NCBI RefSeq assembly: GCF_003852235.1 | Contig: NZ_CP027732.1 | Span: forward strand, 1,674,001-1,738,000 | DNA from: Pseudomonas sp. R4-35-07 | GTDB taxonomy: Bacteria > Pseudomonadota > Gammaproteobacteria > Pseudomonadales > Pseudomonadaceae | Length of the DNA stretch: 64,000 nucleotides | Direction: 5' to 3' | Part shown: in pieces, positions 1,043-32,985 of the stretch | How the letters are laid out: every line of letters starts with the position of its first letter | Position numbering within the stretch: position 1 is the stretch's first letter | Translations under genes and position numbers: made by a program | Notes under the pieces: model-generated | Database searches by the model: none | What the model was told of the DNA's origin: nothing | The model's input: the letters and a program-made list of their open reading frames with translations, nothing else

Positions 1043-2053
1043 TCACCGCCCTTCCAACAATTCCCCAGCCTGATCCAGCAACGCCAGCGGGTCCGCCGCC
1101 TTATGAATATCCACCGACAACAACTGCCTGAACCTGCGCGCCCCAGGAAAACCCGTGCCCAACCCCAACACATGCCGAGTGATGTGATGCATCGTCCCAC
1201 CACTGGCCAGATGCTCAGCAATATAAGGCCGCAACTGCGCCAACGCCTCCGCCCGACCAATCACCGGCGCCTCACTGCCAAACAACCGCTGATCCACCTG
1301 CGCCAACAGATACGGATTGTGATAAGCCTCCCGCCCCAGCATTACCCCATCAAACGTCTGCAAATGCTCCTGGCACTGCTCCAACGTCTTGATCCCACCG
1401 TTGAGAATAATCTCAAGCTCCGGGAAATCCTGCTTCAACTGCGCCGCCACGTCATAGCGCAATGGCGGAATATCGCGATTCTCCTTCGGCGACAACCCCT
1501 CCAGAATCGCAATCCGCGCATGCACGGTAAAACTGGTGCAACCCGCGTCCTTCACCGTGCCGACAAAATCACACAGCTCGGCATAACTGTCCCGGCCATT
1601 GATACCGATACGGTGCTTCACCGTCACCGGAATCGACACCGCATCGCGCATCGCCTTCACACAGTCCGCAACCAGGGCAGGGTGGGCCATGAGGATCGCG
1701 CCGATCATGTTGTTCTGCACGCGATCGCTGGGGCAGCCGACGTTCAAGTTCACTTCATCGTAACCGGCGGCCTCGGCCATACGGGCGCAGGCGGCCAGAT
1801 CGGCGGGGACACTGCCGCCTAGCTGGAGCGCAAGCGGGTGCTCGGCTTCGTTGTGACGCAGGAAGCGCTCGTGGTCGCCGTGGAGGATAGCGCCAGTGGT
1901 GACCATCTCGGTGTAGAGCAGGGTGTGCTTGGAGAGCAGGCGTAGGAAGTACCGGCAGTGGCGGTCGGTCCAGTCCATCATGGGGGCAACACTAAAGCGC
2001 CGAGACAGCGTGGGCCTTGCGTTTACGGGGCTAAAGGTCTGTTTATCTAGCAT
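1043..2053 (-). CDS. dusA: tRNA-dihydrouridine(20/20a) synthase DusA with prophage-supplied N-terminus
   Basis: FMN-dependent reductase that converts uridine to dihydrouridine in the D-loop of tRNA. Visible motifs are FSVAPMMDWTDRHCR at the FMN-binding start, NLNVGCPSDRVQ with the catalytic Cys, and HARIAILEGLSPKENR. With the start at 2053 (MLDKQTFSPVNARPTLSRRF) it has 336 residues, normal for DusA. An upstream in-frame ATG at 2155 would add an unlikely tail. Codons before about 1990 come from the prophage, because the original host start (MPLQSAPLSRRF) now sits at 27713. So the enzyme is probably functional but expressed from prophage DNA, divergent from the integrase. The ribosome-binding site is weak, so the exact start is uncertain. 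Confidence 0.93.
   Translation of the reverse strand: MLDKQTFSPVNARPTLSRRFSVAPMMDWTDRHCRYFLRLLSKHTLLYTEMVTTGAILHGDHERFLRHNEAEHPLALQLGGSVPADLAACARMAEAAGYDEVNLNVGCPSDRVQNNMIGAILMAHPALVADCVKAMRDAVSIPVTVKHRIGINGRDSYAELCDFVGTVKDAGCTSFTVHARIAILEGLSPKENRDIPPLRYDVAAQLKQDFPELEIILNGGIKTLEQCQEHLQTFDGVMLGREAYHNPYLLAQVDQRLFGSEAPVIGRAEALAQLRPYIAEHLASGGTMHHITRHVLGLGTGFPGARRFRQLLSVDIHKAADPLALLDQAGELLEGR
1970..1990. other. attL, prophage attachment site in dusA
   Basis: The 21 bp here and at 27654-27674 are identical except at two positions and share the core TCCATCATGGGGGC (1974-1987 and 27658-27671). The core encodes APMMDW of DusA. Integration at the 5' end of dusA is an established habit of one integrase family, and an integrase gene starts about 165 bp away. 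The exact crossover point within the core cannot be read. Confidence 0.9.
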
Positions 2054-25351: not shown

Positions 25352-27130
25352 ATGCTGCTAAAGGGATTTGGTTTTTCGGGGTATCGAAGTATTGGCGATA
25401 AACTTGTTAAGTTGGCTCCCTTAAAAAAGGTAAATTTTATTATAGGTCAAAATAATATTGGTAAATCTAATATTATTAATTTTCTTTTTCATCACTACCC
25501 TACGCTTTTACGTGGAGTAAAAGGCGAGAAGATAAGCGACGCTATTCAACTGTCCGCGATAGATGAGCATATTTCGAAAGGTAAGGTCGATCGTAGAGTC
25601 GCTTTTAATATGCAGTTTTCTGAGATTGATGAGTATCTTTGGGGGAAAATTGGCAGCGAAGGCTCTAGTCAGCATGTGGAGTTAGCGAAAAAAGTACTGA
25701 TGAGTCCAGGGTTTAATGACGGGGCGAGGCTGTGGTTCGTTTATATATACGATAAATTAAAGAAAAAATTTGCCTTGGTTTATGATCGAGAGCAAGTGGA
25801 GGGGGCACTTAACCCCAGCGAATGGCAGATTTTATGGGCGGCTTTAACTAAGCAGGGTCGTGGGAATTTAAAGGATCATTGGATTCCGGAAACAATGCTA
25901 GCGCTTGCTTATTATCCAGATACTATCCCGAAGATTGAAGTAATTCCTGCAATTAGGAAAATTGGAGCTTCGGGAACTCAGGCTACGGATTTCAGCGGAG
26001 AAGGGATAATCGAACGCTTGGCGAAAATCCAGAACCCGACTTTGCAACTTCAAAAAGATAAATTAAAATTTACTGCAATAAATAATTTCTTATCCGATGT
26101 GCTCGAAAATTTAAGTGCTTCAATAGAGATACCTCATGATCGAGATATGATACTCGTTCATATGGACGGTAAAACCTTGCCACTAGAATCCTTGGGGACC
26201 GGTGTGCATGAGGTTATCATACTTGCAGCGGCCGCTACTCTGCTCGAGGATAGTATATTATGTATAGAAGAGCCCGAGCTGCATTTGCACCCTTTGCTTC
26301 AGCGGAAGTTGGTGGCCTACCTGAATAATAAAACTAATAATCAATATTTTTTTACCACTCATTCTGCGCATCTATTAGATGCTGTAGAGGCGGAGATTTT
26401 TCATGTTACTCAAATTGAGGGCGCTACTGAAGTCGAGGCTATATCGAGCACCAGGCAACGTTCAGAAATTTGCAGTAATCTTGGTTATAAAGCTTCCGAT
26501 ATTTTGCAGGCTAACTGTGTTATCTGGGTTGAAGGACCTTCCGACAGAATATACTTGAATTATTGGATCGCTACACTTGTTGATAGTTTTGTGGAGGGCG
26601 TGCACTATTCAATAATGTTTTACGGCGGCCGACTATTTAGCCATTTGTCGGCACTGGATAGCGATGAGCAAGAAAGGCTTGAAGATTTTATAAGTATTAG
26701 AAAGCTTAACAGGCATTCGGTGATAATGTTTGATAGTGATAGGTCTAGCGCACATGCTAAATTGTCCTTAACTAAGCAGCGGCTGCAACAGGAGTTTGAC
26801 GTTGGCCCTGGATTTGCGTGGGTTACAAAGGGGCGAGAAGTTGAGAACTACTTAGATGAGACATTGGTCGAGGCAACAGTTCTTGCGGTCCACCCTTCAG
26901 CGAAATCACTGGAAAGCCGTGGGCAATGGGCGAATCTTCTGAGGTATTACAAGACCAAGGGAGGAGAGATAAAAGAGGCGAGCAAGGTTAAAGTGGCACA
27001 GCATTATACAGCTAATTATGTTGCTGACTTGAAACGCTTAGACTTAGAGAAGCAAATGGAAAGGCTTAGAATTTTCATACTTGAATCTAACCACCAGTTT
27101 GATGGTATGTATCCTATAGAGTATCGATAG
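25352..27130 (+). CDS. OLD-family ATP-dependent endonuclease
   Basis: A 592-residue overcoming-lysogenization-defect type nuclease. ATPase part: Walker A GQNNIGKS (32-39), signature-like LGTGVHEVI (281-289), Walker B ILCIEEPE (302-309) and TTHS H-loop (335-338). Toprim nuclease part: VEGPSDR with E394, FDSD with D461/D463, and KGREVENYL near 493-501. All key residues are present. It is a single gene with no UvrD-like helicase beside it, so it is class 1-like (as P2 Old), not Gabija. It is AT-rich compared with the prophage around it, indicating later acquisition. A TATAAT hexamer (25323-25328) and GAGGG precede it. A phage-exclusion role is inferred from the family and position. Confidence 0.92.
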   Translation: MLLKGFGFSGYRSIGDKLVKLAPLKKVNFIIGQNNIGKSNIINFLFHHYPTLLRGVKGEKISDAIQLSAIDEHISKGKVDRRVAFNMQFSEIDEYLWGKIGSEGSSQHVELAKKVLMSPGFNDGARLWFVYIYDKLKKKFALVYDREQVEGALNPSEWQILWAALTKQGRGNLKDHWIPETMLALAYYPDTIPKIEVIPAIRKIGASGTQATDFSGEGIIERLAKIQNPTLQLQKDKLKFTAINNFLSDVLENLSASIEIPHDRDMILVHMDGKTLPLESLGTGVHEVIILAAAATLLEDSILCIEEPELHLHPLLQRKLVAYLNNKTNNQYFFTTHSAHLLDAVEAEIFHVTQIEGATEVEAISSTRQRSEICSNLGYKASDILQANCVIWVEGPSDRIYLNYWIATLVDSFVEGVHYSIMFYGGRLFSHLSALDSDEQERLEDFISIRKLNRHSVIMFDSDRSSAHAKLSLTKQRLQQEFDVGPGFAWVTKGREVENYLDETLVEATVLAVHPSAKSLESRGQWANLLRYYKTKGGEIKEASKVKVAQHYTANYVADLKRLDLEKQMERLRIFILESNHQFDGMYPIEYR

Positions 27131-27644: not shown

Positions 27645-27713
27645 TTAGTAGTTCCAATCCATCATGGGGGCGACGGAGAAGCGGCGGGAGAGGGGGGCGG
27701 ATTGTAGGGGCAT
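27645..27713 (-). pseudogene. Displaced 5' end of host dusA
   Basis: Reading the reverse strand from the ATG at 27713 gives MPLQSAPLSRRFSVAPMMDW, then NY and a stop. The segment LSRRFSVAPMMDW is the start of DusA, and after the att core the frame enters prophage DNA. This is the original N-terminus of the gene now split by the prophage. Excision would rejoin it to the body of dusA at 1990. Confidence 0.92.
27654..27674. other. attR, right attachment site
   Basis: Pairs with attL (1970-1990): 19 of 21 positions are identical, including the core TCCATCATGGGGGC. It marks the right end of the prophage, about 25.7 kb from attL. Confidence 0.9.
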
Positions 27714-27894
27714 TGGGGGATCTGAGTTAGCGAGGCGAATGGGGCGCAGTTTATCAGGGATGGGTCTTGGGTGTGGGGGAGGCTTGTTTTGCGGCTTTCA
27801 CCACTTCGAACGAGGACGTTGACGTGTGTGGAGTACGCCAAGGAGAGCGATATAGTTCGCTCCGTCCTCCATTTTGAGTGCTTTTTCAAGCAAC

Positions 27895-28137
27895 TCAATC
27901 TGCATTCCGGCTCCAGCACCTAGCGCGCATGGCCGCCACTTGGGCATCGGTGGCGAATTTGCCTTCATCGGCGTCTTTTAGCGCCAGCTTGATCTGAGCG
28001 GTCAGTGTTTTTTTGTGCTCGCTGTAGTCGCGAAGAACGTCCATTGCCAAGTAGCTCGGTGTCTGGCCGTTGTTTTTGGCCAAGTCGGCGAGAGAATTGG
28101 ACAGGTCTTCAGGCAGGTTTAGGGATATTCCAGTCAT
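27895..28137 (-). CDS. RHH (CopG/ParD-like) antitoxin, toxin partner missing
   Basis: An 80-residue protein. The N-terminal TGISLNLPEDLSNSLADLAK has the beta-strand and first helix of a ribbon-helix-helix domain. SYLAMDVLRDYSEHKKTL follows, and a C-terminal neutralising-like tail (KDADEGKFATDAQVAAMRA) resembles ParD/RelB-type antitoxins. A toxin gene should follow downstream, but only short frames are found before attR, so it is an orphan or a remnant. It may still repress its own promoter. Confidence 0.65.
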   Translation of the reverse strand: MTGISLNLPEDLSNSLADLAKNNGQTPSYLAMDVLRDYSEHKKTLTAQIKLALKDADEGKFATDAQVAAMRARCWSRNAD

Positions 28138-28350
28138 GGCAGCCTCGATGAGGGGCGGTTGTGGGGCATCTTACACCTTGGTGCGCTTGGTTGACTCAGC
28201 AGTCCGTCGTGAGGTGTATCTGGAAGTGAATTGCTTTTTCTCTGGCTACTAAAACTTAGGTATCGTGTCCTGGCCTCGTTATTCGCCCATGAGTGACGCG
28301 GTCCACGTCATGAGCTTTCATATAAGCCAACAAACGCGAGGTCAAAAGTT

Positions 28351-28676
28351 ATGACCAAGAAACCTAGTCTTGAAAGGGGGGATACGGTGAACCCGGAATG
28401 GTCGGCTGAGGACTTTGCTAAGGCCAAGCCAGCCAGCGAGGTGTTTGTGGGATTGTTTGGCCAAGCTCAGGCGAAGGAAATGCTCAAACCCAAGCGCGGG
28501 CGGCCAAAGCGGTAGCCACTAATAGAGCATGTTAATGTTCGTTTTGATGCTGACGTGCTGGAGCGATTCAGGGCTTCGGACCGGGCTCGCGAACGCGAAT
28601 GAACGCCGCTTTGCCCCATTGGCTCAAGACGCATACACCGGATGAGCTAAAGGCCTACGACATAAGCCGCGGATGA
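28351..28676 (+). pseudogene. Decayed BrnA-like antitoxin gene
   Basis: The frame from 28351 reads MTKKPSLERGDTVNPEWSAE and on to KPKRGRPKR, then a TAG at 28513. The same frame continues HVNVRFDADVLERFRASDRA, the ribbon-helix-helix core of BrnA antitoxins. A shifted frame then gives PHWLKTHTPDELKAYD. The gene thus has a premature stop and a small deletion near the C-terminus. Just upstream, DAVHVMSFHISQQTRGQKL ends 4 bp before the ATG and could be the tail of a BrnT-like toxin that is otherwise gone. Confidence 0.55.
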
Positions 28677-28687
28677 TGCGGCTTTTT
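28664..28687 (+). terminator. Terminator after the brnA remnant
   Basis: AAGCCGC / GCGGCTT stem with a 7-nt loop, followed by TTT. It isolates the operon starting at 28925 from transcription on its left. Confidence 0.75.
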
Positions 28688-28838
28688 GCTGTCTTGTGAT
28701 TAGCTTTTCCTCAGCGATGGTATAAATCTGTCCCTTTTTTCCTAGGCAGTGTGCAGTGTTTTTCGATCCGTCCGACGATTTTCGGGGTCTGACTCGTCGG
28801 CGAAAAGTTATAGACGAGTGCCACATTCCAAATTTTTT

Positions 28839-28857
28839 TGATGTCACGTAGACATCA
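28839..28857. promoter_or_regulatory. Palindromic operator candidate upstream of the DUF5343-HEPN genes
   Basis: TGATGTC-ACGTA-GACATCA is a perfect 7+7 dyad in an otherwise AT-rich stretch, 67 bp before the GTG at 28925. It fits a dimeric repressor site, although no repressor gene lies beside it. Confidence 0.5.
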
Positions 28858-28924
28858 TGATGGCGGAAGAGTAGCGTTCGTTAAGAGCAAGCCTCATCCA
28901 CGGTACGGACACTAGGAGAAAAAA

Positions 28925-29548
28925 GTGGCTAAAGCATACCCCGCCTTCATGAACGCGACAGGAAATATACCTCGAATTCTAGAAAAAATTAGAGTGGCTG
29001 CTACACCCGAACGGTTTACGCAAGACTATCTAGCGACAGAGTTAGGGTTTTCTGGAGGTGGCGCCAGAGCCTTTATTCCATTAGCAAAGAAGCTTGGCTT
29101 TTTAGGTAGTGATGGAACTCCAACAGAGTTGTATAAGCAGTTTCGTAACACTAATGCTGAAAAATCAAAGTCGGCTATGGCAAAGGCAATCAAGAATGCC
29201 TACCCAGATATATACGCCAGAAACGAGTATGCGCATAGCTTGAGTAAGGCCGACTTTGAAGGACTTGTTGTCGAAATCACAGGCATGGAAAAGGGAAATC
29301 CAAGCGTTCGGGCTGTAGTTGGAACTTTTGAAGCATTGAAATCGTTTGCTGACTTTTCAGTAGTTGCCTCACATGAAGAACGTGCGCCAATCGAGAAAAA
29401 AGTCATTGAGGATATAAGCTTTTCTGAGATGTCAGATGTGAAGCTTGGATTGTCCTACACCATAAATTTGGTGTTACCAAAGACAGATGACGTATCTGTC
29501 TTTAATGCGATTTTTCGTAGCCTTCGCGAAAACCTGTTGAAGAAATGA
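28925..29548 (+). CDS. DUF5343 protein
   Basis: A 207-residue protein of the DUF5343 family. It opens with YPAFMNATGNIPRILEKIRV, then FTQDYLATELGFSGGGARAF and PLAKKLGFLGSDGTPTELYK, a winged-helix-like region that often recognises DNA or partners. The C-terminal about 90 residues (EERAPIEKKVIEDISFSEMS; LGLSYTINLVLPKTDDVSVF) are a separate small domain. It starts at GTG 28925 after AGGAGAAAA. It lies one base before the HEPN gene, so the two are co-translated. AT-rich compared with the host. Members of this family occur in accessory regions; a defence role is inferred from the partner. Confidence 0.8.
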   Translation: MAKAYPAFMNATGNIPRILEKIRVAATPERFTQDYLATELGFSGGGARAFIPLAKKLGFLGSDGTPTELYKQFRNTNAEKSKSAMAKAIKNAYPDIYARNEYAHSLSKADFEGLVVEITGMEKGNPSVRAVVGTFEALKSFADFSVVASHEERAPIEKKVIEDISFSEMSDVKLGLSYTINLVLPKTDDVSVFNAIFRSLRENLLKK

Positions 29549-29549
29549 A

Positions 29550-30134
29550 ATGGAAGATAAAATCAAGATTTTTGTGTTCTCTAACCAAATGGCTGAGCGT
29601 GCTTTAGATGGAGTAGAGAAAGGTTTGCAACTTGATCTTAATAGAGATCTTGGGATGGACGATGTGGAGGAGAAAGATCAGGATTATTATCCTCAGTTTA
29701 CCCAGTCAATAAGGTCTCAAGCTCGTGAGATGGCCATCCATTATGAACTTTTTTATTGTTTGGAAGTTTCTATTCGTACGTTGGTTAAAGAGAAGTTGAA
29801 ATCGGAGCTTGGTGCTAATTGGTGGGGCGCTGCTGAGGTGCCGGATTCAATAAAGAAGAATGTGAGGGATAATATTCAGCGGGAAATTGACTCATCTTTT
29901 ACTCAGCGTTCTGATGATGAACTTGATTATACTACGTTCGGGGAGTTAGGGGAGATTGTACGAAAGAATTGGGCTCATTTTGGGGACGTTTTTGATAGTG
30001 AGAAGGCATTCAATAGAGTTATGAATAGTCTGAACCTTCTTAGAGGACCAATTGCTCATTGTAGTCCGTTGGCGGAGGACGAGGTTGTCAGGCTAAAACT
30101 TACTTTGCGAGATTGGTTTAGGCTGATGGAATAG
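29550..30134 (+). CDS. HEPN-domain protein, Swt1-like
   Basis: A 194-residue protein that looks like a HEPN domain of the Swt1 type. The C-terminal FNRVMNSLNLLRGPIAHCSP carries the R-x4-H motif (RGPIAH) of HEPN RNases. An earlier helix FYCLEVSIRTLVKEKLKSEL and NWAHFGDVF fit the fold. HEPN proteins are often RNA-cleaving toxins in abortive infection or toxin-antitoxin modules. It is translated directly after the DUF5343 gene, suggesting a two-component sensor/effector or antitoxin/toxin pair. AT-rich. Confidence 0.75.
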   Translation: MEDKIKIFVFSNQMAERALDGVEKGLQLDLNRDLGMDDVEEKDQDYYPQFTQSIRSQAREMAIHYELFYCLEVSIRTLVKEKLKSELGANWWGAAEVPDSIKKNVRDNIQREIDSSFTQRSDDELDYTTFGELGEIVRKNWAHFGDVFDSEKAFNRVMNSLNLLRGPIAHCSPLAEDEVVRLKLTLRDWFRLME

Positions 30135-30287
30135 TTGTTGTCAGATTTTTATCAGGCAATGGTCTGAGTTTATTGTGTTTGAGATTTTGCCTAATAAATA
30201 GTTCTCTAATGAGCTCAGTGTGTTTGCATGGTAGAGTATATTTAAAGGCTAAACCTAAAAACTTCGCTAAATACTAGGTATATGATT

Positions 30288-31790
30288 ATGTCAAAAACCA
30301 CGGATTTTTATGAAAAAGATTTTTGGTCTGGTTTGTTTCCAATGCAGACTAGTAGGTTAATGATTACGCTCAAAGAGAAAGAGCTTGAAAAATATGTGTA
30401 CCAAAAAGTTTTGGCGGCTACCGAGCTGGCACATAACTTTTTGCCTCAACAGACTGTCTATGCCGATAAGTCAAATGGGCACCTTCGACGAACATTGAAG
30501 CTTGATCCCGTTGCTGAGTACTATTTGTACGATCTTGTATATAGAAATCGTGAGATTTTTAGAAAGCCGTTCTCTGATGTTAGGAAATCTTATGGATATA
30601 GATTCGAAAAGGGTGAAGTTATACCAATAAGTCAGGCTTATAGTTCTTTTAAGAAAGACGTTGCGGATAATTTGGCACGATTTAAGCATCACATAAGTTT
30701 TGATATAGCTGGTTATTTTAATAGTGTATATCACCATGATTTATCCCATTGGTTTTCCTCTTCGGATAAAGTCGATGTTGCGGATCAAGACGGCTTTGGT
30801 AAGTTCATGCGCGAAATTAACTCTGGCCGAAGTGTCGATTTTCTGCCTCATGGTTTGTATCCATCAAAGATGATTGGAAGTGAATTTTTAAAATTCACTG
30901 AGCAGTATGGTCAGTTGAAGAGCTCTGTGGTTTTACGGTTTATGGATGATTATCATATTTTTGATGATAATGAGGATAATATCAAAATAGATTTCATACA
31001 GATCCAGAAATTGCTTGGTCAAAAAGGGTTGAATGTTAATCCGCAAAAAACCCGAAAAAGCGTTCAGGATGTTGAAGTAAAAGCTTCGGAGATTCGCCAG
31101 GAATTATATGAGATAGTTGCAGTTCAAGTTGGTGTTTCTATCTTTGGGTCCGGCCATGAGCAGCCCGAGTATGAAGAAATTGAGGTGATACGTGATCTTT
31201 CGTCTGATCAAGTTGTTCAGTTGTTAGGATTACTCAAGGAAGATGCGTTGGATGACCACGATGCAGATTTCATTTTGAATGTTTTGAGGTTTCATTCAAC
31301 GGATTTTTCTGAATATTTTTCTATATTGCTTGAGCGATTTCCGAGTCTTTCAAAAAGTATCTACTCTTCGCTCGGTTACCATAATGCGCTAACTGTTGCC
31401 GATAAGGCGCAGTTGTCAATAGCGATTTATGAGTATATCGAAAAATCTAACTATGTTTCGGAGTTTCAGTTGTTTTGGCTCGCAACTATGGCTGAAGAGT
31501 ATTTGTTTGCTACTGATTTGTATGGTCGAATATTGAATCAGTTGTATATGCTTAGTTCTAATAGTGTAATTTCTCGTGCGAAAATATTAGAGATTCCTGA
31601 GCAGAAGTTTGGGCTGAAGGAGTTGAGAGATGAGCATTTGAAGAATGGGAGTTCTAATTGGTTATCTTGGGCTTCTGCTTTTGGAACTAGAAGTCTTAAA
31701 AAAGGCGAGCGGAACTACGGTTTGGATTATTTTTCTAAGGGGTCAGATCTGAATTTTTTGATATCTTCATGTGTTAAGGAGATCGAATAG
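30288..31790 (+). CDS. Reverse transcriptase, Abi/UG defence type
   Basis: A 500-residue stand-alone RT. Motif A is SFDIAGYFNSV with D139, motif B is FLPHGLYPSKMIG (about 185-197), motif C is RFMDD with D220/D221, and motif D is GLNVNPQKTR. The catalytic Asp triad is complete, so it should polymerise. There is no maturase X domain or HNH as in group II introns. Residues about 290-500 are an unknown, probably alpha-helical C-terminal domain ending LNFLISSCVKEIE. The architecture fits the Abi/UG (DRT) antiphage RTs; the exact class cannot be assigned here. The start at 30288 has AGGTA 7 bp upstream; 30282 is an alternative. AT-rich, 153 bp after the HEPN gene, with its own probable promoter. 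Confidence 0.85.
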   Translation: MSKTTDFYEKDFWSGLFPMQTSRLMITLKEKELEKYVYQKVLAATELAHNFLPQQTVYADKSNGHLRRTLKLDPVAEYYLYDLVYRNREIFRKPFSDVRKSYGYRFEKGEVIPISQAYSSFKKDVADNLARFKHHISFDIAGYFNSVYHHDLSHWFSSSDKVDVADQDGFGKFMREINSGRSVDFLPHGLYPSKMIGSEFLKFTEQYGQLKSSVVLRFMDDYHIFDDNEDNIKIDFIQIQKLLGQKGLNVNPQKTRKSVQDVEVKASEIRQELYEIVAVQVGVSIFGSGHEQPEYEEIEVIRDLSSDQVVQLLGLLKEDALDDHDADFILNVLRFHSTDFSEYFSILLERFPSLSKSIYSSLGYHNALTVADKAQLSIAIYEYIEKSNYVSEFQLFWLATMAEEYLFATDLYGRILNQLYMLSSNSVISRAKILEIPEQKFGLKELRDEHLKNGSSNWLSWASAFGTRSLKKGERNYGLDYFSKGSDLNFLISSCVKEIE

Positions 31791-32026
31791 TACGACGTGT
31801 GACAGATTTAAAATTATTCGTTTGTAAAGGAAATTAAGTTATAAGTCAGGCCACTATCTCGCTAGGATTTTTCCTACACCTATTTCGGCTTGCCCCTCAG
31901 ACCACCCCTAGCTAACCTCCTCAAGCCGCTGCCAATCCAGCGGCCGGATGTGGAAGTCCGTACCAAGCTAAGACGCAATCGTCACAAACACCTATCGGCG
32001 TTTTTTTACGTCTGTATCATGTGTTT

Positions 32027-32102
32027 CGGCGGCTGTGCGCGGGGCACTTCGGTGCGCCGGGTCCTTAGCCCTGGTCTTCCACACCTGCGTACAGCTGCCA
32101 CC
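32027..32102 (+). ncRNA. C4-antisense-RNA-like structured element
   Basis: A closing stem pairs GGCGGCTGTGCGC (32028-32040) with GCGTACAGCTGCC (32087-32099), allowing two G-U-type changes. Inside lie a hairpin GGGGCAC-TTC-GGTGCGCC and the GGGTCC/CCTGGT segment. This layout and the CTGCGTACAGC stretch match C4 antisense RNA of P1/P4-type phages as I recall the family. It lies 52 bp before a DUF6124 gene, so it may control that gene in cis. Confidence 0.6.
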
Positions 32103-32153
32103 TCTCATGTGGAAGTGAGACTGGTAGTTCCTGAATAGTTAAGGAGCTTCGCC

Positions 32154-32519
32154 ATGTACAAGGTCACACCTAATCCGCCTTATGCTTCAAACGCGGCATC
32201 CTCTGATCCAAAGCTTCAAGCCGCAGCCCAGCGGGCAATCCATCATCACTTGCCCCCATCCGACGACGCTGCACCTGCCGAACACCCAAGCAACAACCTC
32301 TTCCTCGTAAACCCAACCATCGACCCCGAAACCCTCCTGGCCAACGCCGCCGAAAACCTAGCATCCGCCAACGAAATGGCCGCCACCCTGGCGTTCAACC
32401 TCGACGACTCCCAACGAGCCATCGCCCTGGGCATCCAGCAGTTAATCGAGTTGAGCGCATTGCTCGTAGACCGAGCCCAAGAACAAGTTGCGCCTGTAAC
32501 CAAATCAGTCAAAGCCTGA
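32154..32519 (+). CDS. DUF6124 (former DUF3077) family protein
   Basis: A 121-residue protein of a family found almost only in Pseudomonas. The N-terminus is disordered and Pro/Ala-rich (MYKVTPNPPYASNAASSDPK). The conserved part is LFLVNPTIDPETLLANAAEN and LASANEMAATLAFNLDDSQR, helical. AAGGAG precedes the start. Function unknown. The gene sits under a C4-like RNA, and its 3' end is followed by a strong hairpin. Confidence 0.85.
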   Translation: MYKVTPNPPYASNAASSDPKLQAAAQRAIHHHLPPSDDAAPAEHPSNNLFLVNPTIDPETLLANAAENLASANEMAATLAFNLDDSQRAIALGIQQLIELSALLVDRAQEQVAPVTKSVKA

Positions 32520-32529
32520 CAACCAACCC

Positions 32530-32552
32530 TGCCGCCTTCCCCCAAGGCGGCA
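32530..32552 (+). terminator. Hairpin after the DUF6124 gene
   Basis: TGCCGCCTT-CCCCC-AAGGCGGCA is a perfect 9-bp stem. No T-run follows, so it may be a weak terminator or an RNA-stabilising hairpin. Confidence 0.5.
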
Positions 32553-32885: not shown

Positions 32886-32922
32886 TGGGGTGGTGGGGCA
32901 GTTATTGGTGTATTGACTGGCC

Positions 32923-32957
32923 TATTGCTATCGGGGGCAAGCCCCCTCCCACATTGG
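32923..32957. repeat. REP element, single copy
   Basis: GCTATCGGGGGCAAGCCCCC followed by TCCCACATT is the same family as the other REP copies in the window. It lies between the lipoprotein gene and the 3' end of the MFS gene. Confidence 0.85.
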
Positions 32958-32985
32958 ATCTATGATCGGCGCGAAACGTGTGGCG

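Follow-up and report, generated by a model that had tools for sequence, protein, structure and literature searches.

We have studied a reverse transcriptase (RT) gene, drt5, which is found in a stretch of 64,000 nucleotides from the genome of Pseudomonas sp. R4-35-07; the whole stretch will be called the window. Its sequence makes it nearly certain that the product belongs, as an ordinary and intact member, to a known antiphage RT family, Drt5, which is DRT type 5 or UG16 (PMC7699616). Protection against phages is reported for the family as a whole (review PMC13213688). We propose that Drt5 is a stand-alone Class 1-like antiphage polymerase, template-independent and probably protein-primed. 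The mechanism is our interpretation, and we give it a probability of about 70%. What we can show is the family, the intact active site, the architecture with an RT and a helical domain, the strong constraint on the protein and the fact that neither an RNA nor a partner was found.

The NCBIfam equivalog model NF041750 (Drt5) matches residues 9–499 with 654.6 bits, above its cut-off of 550. Three PADLOC models of Drt5 also match, two of them over residues 3–500, the best one with 672.5 bits. The runners-up in PADLOC are far below: Drt8 has 100 bits (residues 19–495) and RT_UG20 has 65.9 bits (residues 115–496). The second best NCBIfam model is that of group II intron RTs (TIGR04416), with 27 bits and a cut-off of 300: a close identity to these RTs, which an earlier note on this DNA had named as a possible refutation, was looked for and is not present. 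A retron RT is equally rejected (NF038233, St85 family, 14.8 bits with a cut-off of 235; no other retron RT model at an E-value of 1), as is a Class 3 enzyme of the DRT1 kind, since there is no nitrilase or phosphohydrolase domain, Pfam finds RVT_1 only and the C-terminal region is all-helical. The earlier note had suspected an undescribed subgroup and had itself named a place in a characterised class of the same architecture as the end of the novelty. This is what we find: NF041750, PADLOC and the Drt5 matches of the C-terminal region place the protein inside Drt5/UG16, with identical architecture. The placement is based on hidden Markov model (HMM) scores and identity rather than on a tree.

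Of 5.8 billion proteins searched, 8000 candidates were scored and 786 of these matched. The 120 matches listed have identities of 49–92% over 95–100% of the query; three of these are named Drt5 (P0005, P0010 and P0055), the other named ones "hypothetical protein" or "RNA-directed DNA polymerase". Within the genus, two genomes out of 398 have a match above the cut-off (that of the window and G411, with an E-value of 1e-30 or better); so do four of 72,556 plasmid records and none of 50,697 phage records. IMG/VR has four Drt5 loci, one of them from this genome.

The reading frame is open throughout (30282–31790, forward strand, 502 codons). An in-frame ATG is found at 30282, while close relatives begin with MSK, so that the start is probably the ATG at 30288, which gives 500 amino acids. 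Residues are numbered here in the frame of 502; D139 and FMDD 218–221 of the earlier note were counted from 30288. The catalytic motifs are intact, as had been noted. In an alignment of 24 sequences, with that of the window among them, there is no variation at D141, G191, M221, D222 and D223 and hardly any at L188, P189 and F220, and the surroundings of the active site are strongly conserved. The gene is also AT-rich as described: in 1-kb bins between 29001 and 32000 the GC content is 37–42%, compared with mostly 55–65% in bins away from the accessory region.

The C-terminal 200 residues or so had been called unassigned, which is understandable, as Pfam only names the RT domain (RVT_1, residues 123–264). 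It is true that they have no Pfam name. They form however a conserved domain of the family: residues 300–502 alone are matched by Drt5 models (best E-value 2e-88) and by nothing else at an E-value of 1, and many of the invariant residues of the family are found there. In the AlphaFold2 (AF2) model m519160aa7ab6, calculated as a monomer, this domain is a helical-repeat solenoid (predicted local distance difference test, pLDDT, 93.3). The whole length matches the folds of DRT6 (9wy8), DRT4 (9vdo, 9l9s) and AbiK. Folded alone, the C-terminal domain has a best Foldseek E-value of 0.3, with nothing at 0.001, and the best 50 matches listed contain no DRT or Abi chain. The predicted arrangement, in which a domain of alpha-helical HEAT-like repeats comes after the RT domain, is that of the Class 1 UG/Abi polymerases.

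We will now consider a template RNA, which the earlier note had placed tentatively in the gap upstream of the gene, around a stem AGGCAA...TTGCCT. The letters are present (30154–30192) and the gap is real: there are 153 bp between position 30134 and the ATG. Such a stem is found once in the window with 0.20 expected, and 19 of 100 shuffled sequences have at least one. The minimum free energy of the 153 nt is -28.5 kcal/mol and the mean of shuffled sequences -29.15 (z 0.17; 108 of 200 shuffles are equal or better); the AGGCAA/TTGCCT pairing does not appear in the best fold. The gap has no match in Rfam. A weak terminator-like site (30152–30167) overlaps the left arm of the stem, with the same AGGCAA. 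It could simply end the transcript of the two preceding genes, M34A and M34B; the 3.4-kb region has seven such sites, with 2.3 expected.

The closest relative with DNA context is L020 (P. paraglycinae), and its similarity to the window extends only from 11 nt before the gene to the stop codon; the upstream DNA of a 92% identical relative has no similarity to that of the window. This comparison says little alone: the fourfold sites are close to saturation (60 of 143 are identical, with about 0.30 expected at saturation), so that even neutral flanks could no longer be recognised. An RNA needed by the system should nevertheless have remained alignable. We therefore rely on the larger set: the upstream 350 nt of 34 Drt5 loci, compared with blastn, give one match in 561 pairs (L034 and L087, syntenic prophages whose similarity ends about 60 nt before the gene), and the upstream 250 nt give none in 561. 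Thirty of these loci are also in the protein alignment and form 435 pairs, with identities of at least 50% in 114, at least 70% in 15 and at least 90% in two: none has any upstream similarity, since the pair just mentioned involves a locus outside this set. Downstream there is one match in 820 pairs, 28 nt directly after the stop codon in L031 and L046, which resembles the start of an attC site. Thus the alignment of noncoding DNA of homologues, which had been proposed as a check, reveals no conserved RNA on either side.

As a positive control we have used DRT2, for which an RNA beside the RT is reported, instead of DRT3, which has too few loci. The control contains eight loci, seven of the 13 plasmid records and L089; a second Drt2 gene of G497, which is in two pieces and has a stop, was excluded. 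Upstream matches are found in two of 28 pairs, one 94% identical (282 nt at 83%) and the other 52% identical (34 nt). These are the only pairs above 50%; all 26 pairs at 30–43% are blank. At 94% and 52% the DRT2 pairs do show upstream similarity, whereas the Drt5 pairs do not. With two informative pairs the power of the control is limited, and we consider the upstream comparison a good argument against a cis-encoded RNA, although not an overwhelming one.

The three syntenic prophage copies (L034, L086 and L087) add to this picture. Conservation is among the lowest in the 50 alignment columns about 58–8 nt before the gene, with 0.40–0.46 in the two pairs with L087 and 0.76 between L034 and L086; one other interval, at -649, is equally low in the pairs with L087 (0.40–0.42). 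A block at about -208 to -158 is conserved (0.90–0.94): divergent genes flank it, and judged by eye it resembles a phage operator. Nor is there convincing evidence of an RNA hidden within the gene. Fourfold identity between the window and L020 varies from 0.14 to 0.80 in intervals of 40 codons, the highest value being based on 5 sites, and no run of conserved synonymous sites is convincing. As far as these comparisons go, Drt5 appears to have no cis-encoded template RNA: it behaves in this respect like Class 1, and the conserved noncoding RNA of Class 2 was not found.

The search for partner genes was also negative. M34A, M34B and the OLD-like protein of the neighbouring prophage have no tblastn match (E-value 1e-3) in 47 Drt5 loci of GTDB genomes (32 of these loci extend 5 kb or more upstream), so that a recurrent association of PDC-M34 with Drt5 is not observed and both proteins were rejected as partners. 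In 54 loci there are 912 mechanical open reading frames (ORFs) at a distance of up to 4 kb from Drt5, and 29 families of these are present in at least two loci. The families with three or four loci belong to the related Pseudomonas prophages L021, L034, L086 and L087 (one is also matched in L043); every other family is limited to two. Three of the four plasmid records with Drt5 were examined, and on two roseobacter plasmids the gene directly upstream of drt5 codes for an ATPase, which in L101 is HerA-like by Pfam (L100, 573–5455; L101, 331–3627). The spacing is 21 bp in L101 and there is a 1-bp overlap in L100; the two ATPases are about 93% identical, and a SIR2-family gene precedes the one in L100. 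We have also rejected this ATPase as a partner: elsewhere in the loci searched there is only a weak match of 39 residues, in L053. Since no partner recurs outside related prophages in the loci searched, Drt5 looks like a one-gene system, and the description of the window gene as a stand-alone defence-type RT, intact and of the Drt5 family, stands.

In the mechanism that we propose Drt5 would functionally join the Class 1 (alpha-Rep) UG/Abi polymerases. It would assemble as a trimer or hexamer, prime synthesis with a hydroxyl residue of its own and extend the DNA without a nucleic-acid template. Upon infection, single-stranded DNA would accumulate, or would bind replication proteins of the phage or the host. 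Phage production would then be stopped, probably at the expense of the cell, either by interference with replication or by cell death. The oligomer, the priming, the product and the target are thus what we infer. For priming we can offer speculative candidates, none of them compelling: Ser290 of the flexible linker (31149–31151), with a weighted conservation of 0.89 over 150 sequences and missing in the alphaproteobacterial L045, L047 and L050, Tyr38 (0.86) and Tyr483 (1.0). We rank Ser290 first because the tyrosines from which AbiA is reported to prime are in the loop that joins its RT domain to the helical one (PMC9508834, PMC11077055), and the serine reported for DRT1 belongs to an unresolved segment which follows the active site of the RT (PMC13275509). 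A more specific version of our proposal, a Class 1 polymerase which primes on Ser290 in the linker and writes a DNA dictated by its active site, free of RNA and partner and of the size of an integron cassette, is very doubtful.

Other explanations have to be weighed. Drt5 might be RNA-templated, in the manner of Class 2 or of retrons, with an RNA which we have missed: it could lie inside the gene, be too diverged or come from elsewhere in the genome. Two points speak for this. In DRT2, DRT3a, DRT9 and DRT10 the RNA is reported to be encoded next to the RT or to its operon (PMC13213688; PMC12632851; PMC13174585), and the 26 blank control pairs indicate that a fast-evolving RNA could escape at such a distance. 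We still find this explanation unlikely: no upstream similarity is seen even in Drt5 pairs of high identity, the only match stops short of the gene, the last 60 nt or so are among the least conserved between syntenic prophages, the gap folds like its shuffles and has no Rfam match, and the coding sequence has no convincing conserved synonymous run. Another alternative concerns the product, which may be a defined sequence set by the active site, protein-templated as in DRT3b, rather than random DNA. DRT3b, a Class 1 RT, is reported to make alternating poly(dCdA) without a nucleic-acid template (PMC13174585), and the conservation around the active site of Drt5 would agree with such a role. We regard it as rather unlikely.

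The two upstream genes suggest yet another possibility, a single three-gene defence system formed by the DUF5343 and HEPN_Swt1 pair (PDC-M34A/B) together with drt5. The pair and drt5 are on the same strand, 147–153 bp apart, and are jointly absent from two related genomes, G017 and G004. The pair is however missing from all other Drt5 loci searched, as described above. Furthermore, among 298 genomes of the genus M34B is present in three, those of the window, G144 and G322, whereas only the window's genome and G411 have Drt5 among the 398 searched for it. A three-gene system is highly improbable. We thus maintain the one-gene, template-independent polymerase as our reading of Drt5. The features of the region are given in Table 1.

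Table 1. Position of drt5, its domains and the surrounding elements in the window
Feature	Position	Strand	Basis or comment
Prophage attachment core, putative, left copy TCCATCATGGGGGC	1974..1987	+	Genome comparison, repeat
Prophage attachment core, putative, right copy TCCATCATGGGGGC	27658..27671	+	Genome comparison, repeat
Defence block: M34A, M34B, drt5	28230..31870	.	Missing in G017, where the flanks are ~60 bp apart
DUF5343 protein, PADLOC candidate PDC-M34A, GTG start	28925..29548	+	Outside the Drt5 system
HEPN_Swt1 protein, PADLOC candidate PDC-M34B	29550..30134	+	Outside the Drt5 system
Upstream gap with the AGGCAA...TTGCCT stem (30154-30192)	30135..30287	+	No sign of functional RNA
drt5 gene	30288..31790	+	NF041750, 654.6 bits; PADLOC Drt5, 1.2e-202, residues 3-500; MSK start of relatives
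RVT_1 part of the RT domain (Pfam), residues 123-264, with D141 and F220-M221-D222-D223	30648..31073	+	
Low-confidence linker between RT and helical domains, residues 260-304	31059..31193	+	pLDDT <50 at 260-272 and 278-304
C-terminal all-helical repeat domain, ~residues 308-500	31203..31781	+	AF2 model, solenoid matches, Drt5-only HMMs

The prophage in the window (~1990–27653) is P2-like in our own reading. It is absent from G017 and G004, with its left edge at ~1990–2008, and portal and scaffold genes inside it support the call; the repeated core TCCATCATGGGGGC likely marks the attachment site. The drt5 block starts about 560 bp after the right core. G017 has no such block, separately from its absence of the prophage, and G004 lacks the prophage and positions 27763–32545. 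Because both genomes place the end of the prophage at 27653, and G017 lacks the block separately, genome comparison puts the drt5 block just beyond the prophage end, in a variable spot adjoining it. This copy of Drt5 is thus not considered cargo of the adjacent prophage. The IMG/VR contig argues otherwise, as it draws the prophage through to 32519; we hold that it is too long. The accessory block beside a prophage attachment site, noted earlier from the sequence, is confirmed by the two related genomes. Inside the prophage, beside the right attachment site, an AT-rich gene (25352–27130, forward strand) codes for an AAA15 ATPase which resembles OLD/GajA and has a weak match to TOPRIM. It is likely a second defence gene, carried by the prophage.

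Elsewhere Drt5 is found in other mobile settings. In two IMG/VR contigs (L086 and L087) and in the syntenic L034 (8001–10581) drt5 is convergent to a gene for an S24-type, CI-like repressor, a position typical of prophage-borne exclusion genes. The same repressor neighbourhood is seen in L021, also a Pseudomonas prophage region. In five of 33 loci (L026, L028, L033, L041 and L043) an attC-like site with a score of at least 10.5 ends 24–34 nt before the start codon, compared with four of 1085 other mechanical ORFs of the same loci (Fisher 1.9e-6; the threshold was picked after a first scan, so the p-value is indicative, and some background ORFs may be cassettes themselves). Downstream sites are not enriched: none in 40 versus 10 in 1099 at a score of 10.5, two in 40 versus 32 in 1099 at a score of 8. 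L028 and L029 have plausible sites 17–18 nt after the stop codon. This controlled scan supersedes an uninformative ungapped one, a strict one with a single locus (L026; background 3 of 654 stretches) and a looser one with eight loci (background 40 of 848). In the looser scan the window's own copy has no attC. The distribution of sites suggests that Drt5 travels as a single-gene integron cassette in several genomes. Our literature search on integron-borne DRTs found no description of Drt5 cassettes among the papers listed; papers of 2025 reportedly deal with defence genes in integrons. The apparent carriage as a cassette and at the side of prophage repressors suggests that one gene suffices for the trait.

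Two other elements are found downstream of the block. On the forward strand, a C4 antisense RNA of Rfam (32022–32105) with its a1/b1 target (31912–31964) precedes a DUF6124 gene (32154–32519). Several related genomes contain many copies of the C4 stretch, which therefore represents a multicopy chromosomal family, not obviously a phage immunity element. At ~32889–32965 there is a REP-like stretch of about 50–70 bp, which is repeated widely on both strands in the window's genome, G004 and G017.

We may finally compare the window protein with known systems. It shares with Drt5 (NF041750) a full-length match, the RT and C-terminal domains and the single-gene organization. Nothing substantive differs: the upstream PDC-M34A/B pair is a feature of the window copy, unseen at the 47 other loci. 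To our knowledge there is no known trigger for Drt5. DRT4 (UG15) and DRT6 have the same whole-length fold, with 12–16% identity to the window protein, and belong to other HMM families (Drt4 has 18.3 bits, with a cut-off of 450). Both are reported as single-gene systems, and DRT4 as making random single-stranded DNA without a template (PMC13213688). AbiK, Abi-P2 and AbiA also have an RT and a helical domain, and their synthesis is reported to be template-independent and protein-primed (PMC9508834, PMC11077055). They differ by an identity of only 10–15% in structural alignments and, in AbiA, by an extra HEPN domain; the priming tyrosine of AbiK has no mapped equivalent in the window protein. The nearest families in sequence after Drt5 are DRT8, which we take to be UG7, and RT_UG20, both far below Drt5 in score. 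The mechanism of DRT8 is listed as not established in PMC13213688. DRT2, DRT9 and DRT10 share the RT domain with Drt5, which differs by having no detected conserved cis RNA; DRT10 has in addition a SLATT partner (PMC12632851), and no recurrent partner was found for Drt5.

In their entries on Drt5, reviews of May and June 2026 also give its mechanism as not established (PMC13213688, PMC13314766). A report of June 2026 describes "DRT5S" and "DRT5L", which make covalently attached DNA without a template and are filed as Class 3, that is, nitrilase or phosphohydrolase RTs (PMC13275509). The window protein has neither domain. For this reason we suspect that these names probably correspond to the small and large forms of UG5, not to UG16, and we do not count them as evidence for the window protein; should they turn out to be UG16, the main part of our proposed mechanism is already published. 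The locus itself is one more Drt5 and its value is comparative, in a type whose mechanism is not established. The evidence speaks against an RNA template and favours a polymerase that is encoded by one gene and needs no template, which is a testable prediction for the family.
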